Source of the DNA: Lentisphaerota bacterium
GTDB taxonomy: Bacteria; Verrucomicrobiota; Lentisphaeria; Victivallales; Victivallaceae
Reading direction: 5' to 3'
Assembly (NCBI GenBank): GCA_015061815.1
Contig: SUVW01000001.1
Location: 1 to 64,000, forward strand
DNA: 64,000 nucleotides
The notes beneath the pieces were generated by a model. The model worked only from the letters and a program-made list of their open reading frames with translations, was not told the origin of the DNA and made no database searches. This document shows, in pieces, positions 62,312 through 64,000 of the stretch. The position numbers were made by a program, and so were the translations under genes. The number at the start of each line of letters is the position of its first letter. Positions within the stretch are counted from its first letter, which is position 1.

Positions 62312-62704
62312 TTACCTGCGTCCGGGGCGATGTGCCGGAGCCGGACGGTGATGACGGGGCGGAGCCGGACGGTGATAGTGGTTGCGGGGCACCGTATAAC
62401 GGTACTGCACCACCGGAGCCGGTGCATAAACAACCGGAGCCGGAGGCGCAACTGTGACCGGATCAGTGTACACCACCTGAACCGGAGCCGGAACCACTGC
62501 CGGAGCCGGAACCACTGCCGGAGCCGGAACTGCAACCACCGGAGCCGGTGCAATCACCCGCGCCACCAGATTTACGATCCCGGCCGCCAGAGCCAAACCG
62601 TCATTGCCATGATGATGATGTCTGGTCCCATGCGGACCGGCAAACGCGGTCGTACCTACCAGCATCACTGCCAACACCGTCATTGTTTTAGTAAGATTTT
62701 TCAT
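62312..62704 (-). CDS. Small secreted Pro/Val/Ala- and His-rich protein
   Basis: The product (about 130 residues from MKNLTKTMTVLAVMLVGTTAFAG, a signal peptide) has HHHH after the cleavage site, a central PAPAVV/PAPVV repeat region with 18-bp DNA repeats, and a His/Pro/Arg-rich end. No known domain is seen. It could bind metal or the cell wall. It has its own promoter at 62789-62816. Confidence 0.65.
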   Translation of the reverse strand: MKNLTKTMTVLAVMLVGTTAFAGPHGTRHHHHGNDGLALAAGIVNLVARVIAPAPVVAVPAPAVVPAPAVVPAPVQVVYTDPVTVAPPAPVVYAPAPVVQYRYTVPRNHYHRPAPPRHHRPAPAHRPGRR

Positions 62705-62788
62705 AACTTTTCCCTTTCGTTTTAAGAGTTGCTGTTGTTTAGCCGTTTCCGGCGACTCCAACCCTTTAACGTTAAGGATTCCCTAATT

Positions 62789-62824: not shown

Positions 62825-64000
62825 TTATTTTCCGCAATCGACCACGATCCCGCGCCGCTTGAATGTGGGGACATCCAAATCTTCCCCATCGAGCATCACC
62901 GGAGTGGTATTTTCCATAATCCCCTTATCTTCAACGATCAAATTCGGCAGATCCATCTGGGTTCCCGGTTCATTGTCATATTCAACGGCTTTATTTACAC
63001 CGGAAGTCCGCTTTCCACTGACAGAAGTGACCGGTGACGGACGATCCAGGTAACGAACCGTCAAAGCTGTCAATTGGAGCTTTCCGGTGAACTCTTCTGA
63101 TGTTGCCGCTCCCATAACTATGATTTTTTCCAAATCCGGATCACATTGACGGGCGCAAAGATCCAATACCGCCCTGGCACTTCCAAGAGAAAGTTCCGGT
63201 CCGCCCAGCAAAGAAAATGCTACTGCATCTGCCGTATCCAGACTTTCCGGTCCGCCCAGCAACGGTGAGGCCAGCAGCTTTTCCGTCGCCCTTGAATAAG
63301 CATCGTCTCCGGCTTCAACCAGAGCCGTCCCCAACGCGCAAAGAGTGTGCCTCCGCTTCAAAACTCCGGTAAAAGATGCGAAATCAGCATTAAAAAGATT
63401 GCCGCCGCCAAGTATCGACGCCACCGCCCGCAATGTGCGGGCCATCTCCTTATCCGACAGGATGAATGCATCATTGATCGCCGTTTCGCCATCCAACGTG
63501 GAAAACAATAAATCATTGGGCAGAACGATCACCGCATCGGCAATCGGCAGAATATCATTTTTGATCTTATCCTCGGCCAGCCGGCGGCGGCGGATGCCTT
63601 CCATAGAAAACGGCAGAGTGACCAACACCGCCGTTGTTATATGCAGTTTAGCCGCCACGCCCAGCACCACCGGCAAACCGCCGGTGGCCAAACCGCCGCC
63701 CAATCCGGCAACGACGATCAAAACATCCGTGTCACTCAAAACATTATGCAGCTGCTTGCGCTCATTGGCCAAAGCCTGCTGACCGGCGATCAGATCACCG
63801 CCGCACCCGCGACCGGAACGCAGCAGTCTGCCGGCCTGTATCCAATGTTCCTCCCCAAGTTGTGTTCCGGCCAGAGAAGTCACATCGCTATCGACTGCCA
63901 GCAGATGAAAACCTGCACTTTCAAAACTTCCGGCAAATTCGCGGATGACCCGGCAACCGGCTCCGCCGACCGCCATTACTGTGATTTTTTTGCTTCCCAT
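62825..64000 (-). CDS. ftsZ: Divergent FtsZ cell-division GTPase
   Basis: The 391-residue protein follows FtsZ from end to end: GTP loop MAVGGAGCRVI (9-19), tubulin-signature loop GLGGGLATGG (99-108) where FtsZ has GMGGGTGTGA, PFSMEG, IVLPND, and T7 loop NADFAS (204-209) where FtsZ has NxDFAD. The C-terminus ends with LDVPTFKRRG like the FtsZ C-terminal peptide. The usual second T7 Asp is a Ser. The start at 64000 is at the window edge, so a longer N-terminus cannot be excluded. A standard FtsZ elsewhere in the genome is possible. Confidence 0.82.
   Translation of the reverse strand: MGSKKITVMAVGGAGCRVIREFAGSFESAGFHLLAVDSDVTSLAGTQLGEEHWIQAGRLLRSGRGCGGDLIAGQQALANERKQLHNVLSDTDVLIVVAGLGGGLATGGLPVVLGVAAKLHITTAVLVTLPFSMEGIRRRRLAEDKIKNDILPIADAVIVLPNDLLFSTLDGETAINDAFILSDKEMARTLRAVASILGGGNLFNADFASFTGVLKRRHTLCALGTALVEAGDDAYSRATEKLLASPLLGGPESLDTADAVAFSLLGGPELSLGSARAVLDLCARQCDPDLEKIIVMGAATSEEFTGKLQLTALTVRYLDRPSPVTSVSGKRTSGVNKAVEYDNEPGTQMDLPNLIVEDKGIMENTTPVMLDGEDLDVPTFKRRGIVVDCGK

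Follow-up and report, generated by a model that had tools for sequence, protein, structure and literature searches.

A single-copy ftsZ lacking one T7-loop acid in a Lentisphaerota bacterium, and the loss of T7 acids across its phylum

The first 64,000 bases of the Lentisphaerota contig SUVW01000001.1 (277,790 bases in all), hereafter the window, end exactly on the ATG of a reverse-strand ftsZ gene, the product of which retains one of the two aspartates of the T7 synergy loop. We think it probable that this is a working division FtsZ, anchored by FtsA, which binds GTP, polymerises and hydrolyses GTP slowly through the remaining aspartate at the position of E. coli D209. Translation of the open reading frame bore out what the initial annotation had read from it, namely a tubulin signature of GLGGGLATGG, a T7 loop of NADFAS and a retained C-terminal peptide LDVPTFKRRG, and alignment with the FtsZ of E. 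coli K-12 confirmed that serine occupies the D212 position. In the contig sequence beyond the window, ftsA lies upstream and ends 2 bases before the ftsZ ATG, with a GGAG sequence located 10 bases before this ATG, and the gene is therefore complete. The Tubulin/FtsZ GTPase domain and the FtsZ C-terminal domain are both present, and together with the ftsA neighbour and the C-terminal peptide DLDVPTFKRRG, which is predicted to bind FtsA/ZipA, they mark the protein as an FtsZ orthologue by descent.

Compared with the E. coli K-12 protein, the window FtsZ retains D45, G71, R142, N165, D166, N207 and D209, and carries the changes D212S, T108L, G109A, A112G, Q47T and A70C. The retained residues, the fold, the ftsA neighbour and the C-terminal peptide are shared with the canonical FtsZ of E. 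coli, B. subtilis and S. aureus, from which it differs at positions 212, 108, 109, 47 and 70. Of the two canonical T7 aspartates only D209 is thus present, and the canonical signature GGGTG[ST]G is replaced by GGGLATG. The protein scores about 152-153 bits (152.4) with TIGR00065, below the curated equivalog cut-off of 295.2, but this cut-off was passed in only 14 of the 144 phylum genomes searched and therefore misses most of the phylum. As to whether the protein is closer to tubulin, BtubA/B, TubZ or CetZ than to FtsZ, the matches listed in the sequence and fold searches were FtsZ chains, and the identity to solved FtsZ structures was 25–30%. The AlphaFold model has a mean predicted local distance difference test score of 66 over residues 201–210, which leaves the T7 loop too uncertain for judging its geometry. 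The cysteine at the A70 position is a feature of the lineage, found in 28/30 FtsZ of the genus, 21/24 of the rest of the family, 34/36 of the rest of the order and 9/14 of the rest of the class, compared to 2/89 in the rest of the phylum and 0/69 elsewhere.

The initial annotation had offered a second paralog beside a normal FtsZ as one explanation of these changes, and had called for a genome search, which gave no other FtsZ. The assembly (2.50 Mb, 44 contigs, 94.25% complete) contains one match each to PF00091 and TIGR00065, while the class-level FtsZ alignment as query returned one real match and a stray one at E 0.08, and a second ftsZ was rejected on these grounds. A single PF00091 match was likewise found in 30 of the 34 genomes of the genus, the other four (76–87% complete) having none, and in 54 of the 59 genomes of the whole family, with none in five and two in no genome. 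Comparison with an 87%-identical relative gave nonsynonymous and synonymous divergences (dN and dS) of 0.084 and 0.95 (dN/dS 0.09), and purifying selection acts on the gene. On a quick tree the window FtsZ belongs to a clade of 16 genomes of the genus (support of 100 in the Shimodaira-Hasegawa-like approximate likelihood ratio test), in which the residue at T108 is Leu, Met or Ile, the 212 acid is absent and D209 is retained without exception (16 of 16 each). The combination of a hydrophobic residue at 108 with a kept D209 and a lost 212 acid is common to this clade, which makes assembly error unlikely, and sequencing error or decay was rejected from the clade together with the dN/dS ratio.

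It is very likely that the window FtsZ still binds GTP and forms head-to-tail filaments, and that FtsA holds these at the membrane by way of the conserved C-terminal peptide. The composite active site would still hold the D209-position aspartate, N207, the R142 finger and D45, and hydrolysis would proceed through the remaining acid. In filament structures of S. aureus FtsZ, D210 (E. coli D209) swings and places the attacking water, and is thus the moving catalytic aspartate, whereas the setting is formed by D213 (D212) and G72, with R143 and N208 involved as well; each of D46A, R143Q, N208L, D210N and D213N suppressed assembly (PMC8936486). The initial annotation made no mention of D209, the moving aspartate that is intact in the window FtsZ. 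The positions that have changed here are those of known laboratory point mutants in E. coli, where a D212G fusion had an almost tenfold lower GTPase activity and static rings (PMC7320174), and low GTPase is reported for T108A (FtsZ3) and G105S (PMC3618327) and for G109S (PMC8953583). FtsZ(D212A), also a low-GTPase mutant, still allowed septa to be finished when overproduced together with FtsA in a wild-type E. coli background (PMC4383033). Unlike these laboratory mutants, the window protein is a natural sole copy. Candidatus Thiosymbion oneisti has been described as having a natural low-GTPase FtsZ (PMC8953583). With D212 lost, a hydrophobic residue at 108 and alanine at 109, slower GTP hydrolysis than in E. 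coli FtsZ would be expected, with longer-lived and slowly treadmilling filaments. Of the slow or non-hydrolysing FtsZ suggested by the initial annotation, slow hydrolysis is thus our best guess from the D212G, T108A and G109S mutants, and its non-hydrolysing variant is rated lower.

The loss of the 212 acid is not peculiar to the window gene, and what looked like a single-gene surprise is phylum-wide. We aligned 194 FtsZ of the phylum with 69 from elsewhere, the latter drawn mostly from a scan with the window FtsZ as query and consisting mainly of Alphaproteobacteria plus E. coli, B. subtilis, Klebsiella and a few others, and thus not a balanced sample of Bacteria. Proteins below 60 bits to our own FtsZ model were not counted as FtsZ (a second tubulin family; 15 were under 30 bits and 7 loci gave no match), and the 194 leave out the named Lentisphaeria loci L084-L097, many of which are copies of other loci in the set, as well as proteins of family f17 and genus g46 that were found later (f1-f51 are codes for genome groups, f1 being the family of the window). 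An acid at both T7 positions, at D209 only, at D212 only and at neither was found in 1, 24, 5 and 0 FtsZ of the genus (n = 30), 15, 7, 2 and 0 of the rest of the family (n = 24), 16, 18, 0 and 3 of the rest of the order (n = 37), 1, 9, 1 and 3 of the rest of the class (n = 14), and 14, 48, 26 and 1 of the rest of the phylum (n = 89), compared to 69, 0, 0 and 0 elsewhere (n = 69). The 212 acid was thus missing in 113/194 FtsZ of the phylum and 0/69 elsewhere, and both acids were missing in 7/194, including one protein with the loop deleted. The initial annotation had allowed that its residues might be standard among hydrolysing FtsZ of the phylum, and half of this holds, as loss of the 212 acid is the majority state and extends to 12 of the 14 FtsZ above the TIGR00065 cut-off, another one of which lacks the acid at 209. 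Threonine at the T108 position is retained in 72/105 FtsZ of the class and 72/89 of the rest of the phylum. The FtsA-binding peptide pattern was present in 102/105 class FtsZ, with near variants plainly visible in the other three, and in 77/89 from the rest of the phylum, and ftsA was directly upstream by a strict rule at 153/194 loci, with a further 27 having ftsA upstream on the same strand with overlapping stop-to-stop frames, six lacking room for ftsA and eight lacking ftsA in the stretch. Divergent or fast-evolving FtsZ has been reported for Verrucomicrobium spinosum and Methylacidiphilum (PMC1845146, PMC2474590, PMC9871819), but the portions of these accounts available to us do not discuss T7 acids or truncated forms, and no report of the T7-acid pattern was found in the literature searched. 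As a separate observation, the FtsZ of phylum family f24 (L288, L290, L291 and L292; genomes of 2.3–2.5 Mb) reach only 61–71 bits with TIGR00065 and have odd T7 loops.

Changes at the two T7 positions recur, since 17 are needed at 209 and 24 at 212 on the quick tree, which was built without a mixture model and with the T7 columns excluded. An independent-pairs test was short of informative pairs (median p 0.69 and 0.38), while a Pagel-type test on the whole set gave p 0.0046 with 4 degrees of freedom (df), or p 0.0006 with df 2 (likelihood ratio 14.96), and favoured the direction in which losing one T7 acid hinders losing the other. The dependence was retained with all sequences and a flat root (p 0.0006), with six oddly aligning families left out (p 0.014), with only Asp counted as an acid (p 0.021), and with f17 and the odd families left out (p 0.005). 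Our reading of this is that most lineages are selected to retain an acid in T7, and hence some hydrolysis.

Several observations weigh against a polymerising, slowly hydrolysing FtsZ. The S. aureus D213N change, equivalent to D212, abolishes assembly, an effect beyond hydrolysis (PMC8936486), so that analogy with mutants could predict no polymer, and a GTPase activity of <1% of wild type is cited for D212G elsewhere (PMC7320174). The ZapA and FtsQ_DivIB_C models had no match in this genome at E ≤ 0.1, although each matches in only 5 of 14 control genomes. Finally, the dependence fails when the Pagel-type test is run on Lentisphaeria and outgroups (p 0.61), and a handful of events can be enough to give a false positive in tests of dependent evolution. 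As the independent-pairs test was underpowered and the Lentisphaeria run fails, keeping one of the two T7 acids is a phylum-level tendency, not a law.

The more substantial finding of the analysis concerns sequences outside the window. More extreme FtsZ forms were found in family f17 of the class, which comprises 12 genomes outside the family of the window. In six of these, representing five genera (G075, G076, G078, G079, G080 and G085), the gene adjoining ftsA encodes a half-FtsZ from which the T7 loop and the C-terminal domain are missing, so that the N-terminal domain (to model position ~198) runs directly into the FtsA-binding tail (from ~338–350). One of the six, G078, is a single-contig genome, and a search of all six for a separate FtsZ_C gene was negative, G079 having only a match at E 0.03. 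The half-FtsZ of G079 and G080 (247 and 244 amino acids from the first plausible ATG) are 69% identical with a dN of 0.25 and a dS of 1.44, and are therefore under selection. Among the other f17 genomes, G074, G081, G083 and G084 have a full-length FtsZ without an acid at 209, the tail is the one clearly recognisable part of a 247-residue protein that G082 encodes away from ftsA, and no FtsZ match was found in G077; the GGGTGTG signature is gone in G076, G083 and G084. These sequences suggest that FtsZ in f17 is turning into a non-hydrolysing FtsA partner. A referee's remark printed with Hou et al. refers to a 'non-functional' Lentisphaera ftsZ. Two of the three genomes of genus g46 (5.3–6.0 Mb) encode an FtsZ relative of 349–357 residues which lacks the signature, does not adjoin ftsA and ends in KLKVPTYKRLG plus five residues, while the third g46 genome and G099, from the order of the window, gave no FtsZ match.

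The half-FtsZ of these relatives lend weight to the view, unlikely in our judgement yet the strongest competitor, that meaningful GTP hydrolysis is gone from the window FtsZ as well, leaving a static FtsA-bound scaffold (a GTP-switch or nucleotide-independent polymer) as an early step towards the truncated Lentisphaeria forms. By analogy, the three changed positions are ones where single E. coli mutants lose GTPase, and the FtsA peptide is near-universal in the class, whereas both T7 acids persist in only 33/105 of its FtsZ. The T7 loop of beta-tubulin (NADLRKL), with Asp at the first of the two positions and Lys at the second, lies opposite a GTP that stays unhydrolysed and can be counted on the same side. 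A static scaffold, for which hydrolysis would serve no purpose, does not easily account for the retention of D209, N207, R142 and D45 or for the near-invariance of D209 in close relatives, and the extreme cases belong to a different family of the class.

Normal hydrolysis, in which other residues would make up for the Ser at 212 and the Leu at 108 and may do so across much of the phylum, is improbable: the 212 loss being the majority state, even above the curated cut-off, fits with it, as may the essentiality of FtsZ in V. spinosum (PMC12283558), but we looked for a compensating residue in the window FtsZ and found no candidate, and the absence of Thr at 108 is a minority state, so that the window gene adds a second and rarer change. 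The reported fast evolution and divergence of FtsZ in the phylum (PMC2474590, PMC9871819) might be taken as a sign of a decaying or non-functional gene, which is very improbable given the open frame, the low dN/dS, and the conserved operon position and tail. A paralog working beside a normal FtsZ is hardly credible, as the window gene itself adjoins ftsA and neither the source genome nor any of the 59 family genomes has two PF00091 matches, unless another ftsZ lies in the 6% missing from the assembly, even though further families of the class and phylum do possess a second, distant tubulin-family protein.

With slow hydrolysis by the window FtsZ as the preferred reading, the class as a whole may tentatively be seen as showing a stepwise release of FtsZ from GTP hydrolysis, in which the protein was kept as a partner of FtsA; we consider this possible rather than probable, and it would make the window protein a natural, sole and near-non-hydrolysing FtsZ supporting division without treadmilling. 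The first step (the clade of the window) would have removed the T108 hydroxyl and one of the T7 acids, the second the acids at both catalytic positions (full-length f17 FtsZ), and the third the whole T7 loop and C-terminal domain (the half-FtsZ of five f17 genera), in some together with the GTP-binding signature, whereas the FtsA-binding tail would have been kept throughout and the location next to ftsA in most cases. To our knowledge, the need for GTPase-driven FtsZ treadmilling in division has been tested mostly with damaged laboratory mutants, and a natural series from both acids to one, none and a half-FtsZ, mostly beside ftsA, would allow the question to be asked with evolved proteins. 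The series could also show a route by which FtsZ is lost, leading to the FtsZ-less division of the neighbouring Planctomycetes and Chlamydiae.

Table 1. Features of the window FtsZ (window coordinates) and divergent FtsZ forms in family f17 and genus g46 (locus:coordinates)
Feature	Location	Strand	Remarks
ftsZ (P0001)	62825..64000	-	391 amino acids, complete ORF; sole FtsZ found in genome
T3 loop SGRGCGGD	63794-63817	-	P0001 residues 62-69; Cys where E. coli has A70
T4 loop / tubulin signature GLGGGLATGG	63677..63706	-	residues 99-108; Leu104 = E. coli T108, Ala105 = G109
T7 synergy loop NLFNADFASF	63371..63400	-	residues 201-210; Asn204 = N207 kept, Asp206 = D209 kept, Ser209 = D212 lost
C-terminal FtsA-binding peptide LDVPTFKRRG	62849..62878	-	residues 375-384; FtsA binding predicted from family knowledge
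Extended C-terminal module GIMENTTPVMLDGEDLDVPTFKRRGIVVDCGK	62828..62923	-	persistently kept across class, truncated FtsZ included
Half-FtsZ beside ftsA, f17	L339:4086-4997		
Half-FtsZ beside ftsA, f17	L342:1275-2060		
Half-FtsZ beside ftsA, f17	L344:1557-2357		
Half-FtsZ beside ftsA, f17	L343:2405-3430		
Half-FtsZ beside ftsA, f17	L309:1279-2229		
Half-FtsZ beside ftsA, f17	L334:1442-2212		
Very divergent FtsZ relative, g46	L331:895-1941		without GGGTGTG
Very divergent FtsZ relative, g46	L332:1250-2320		without GGGTGTG

The nearest named records of the source bacterium are metagenome-assembled genomes from animal guts, and its genome encodes two FtsW/RodA proteins. Directly 3′ of ftsZ, at 62312-62761 on the reverse strand, lies a gene for a small protein, predicted to be secreted, that contains a stretch of His residues as well as proline-alanine-valine repeats (PAPAVVPAPAVV). 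The second tubulin-superfamily protein of the phylum is ~366 amino acids long, with the motif M.IGIGGAG.K.A...NVSE.EL and the signature GGGTGNG, and was found at L056-L060, L193-L203 and L293-L298. Its occurrence is spread over several of the other class families, with a single case (G177) elsewhere in the phylum. It was also seen in five of the six half-FtsZ genomes, with a weak match in G079 and none seen in G075. In the one such protein that was compared with solved structures the N-terminal third alone resembles FtsZ, and some of the genes neighbouring this family look like protein kinases.
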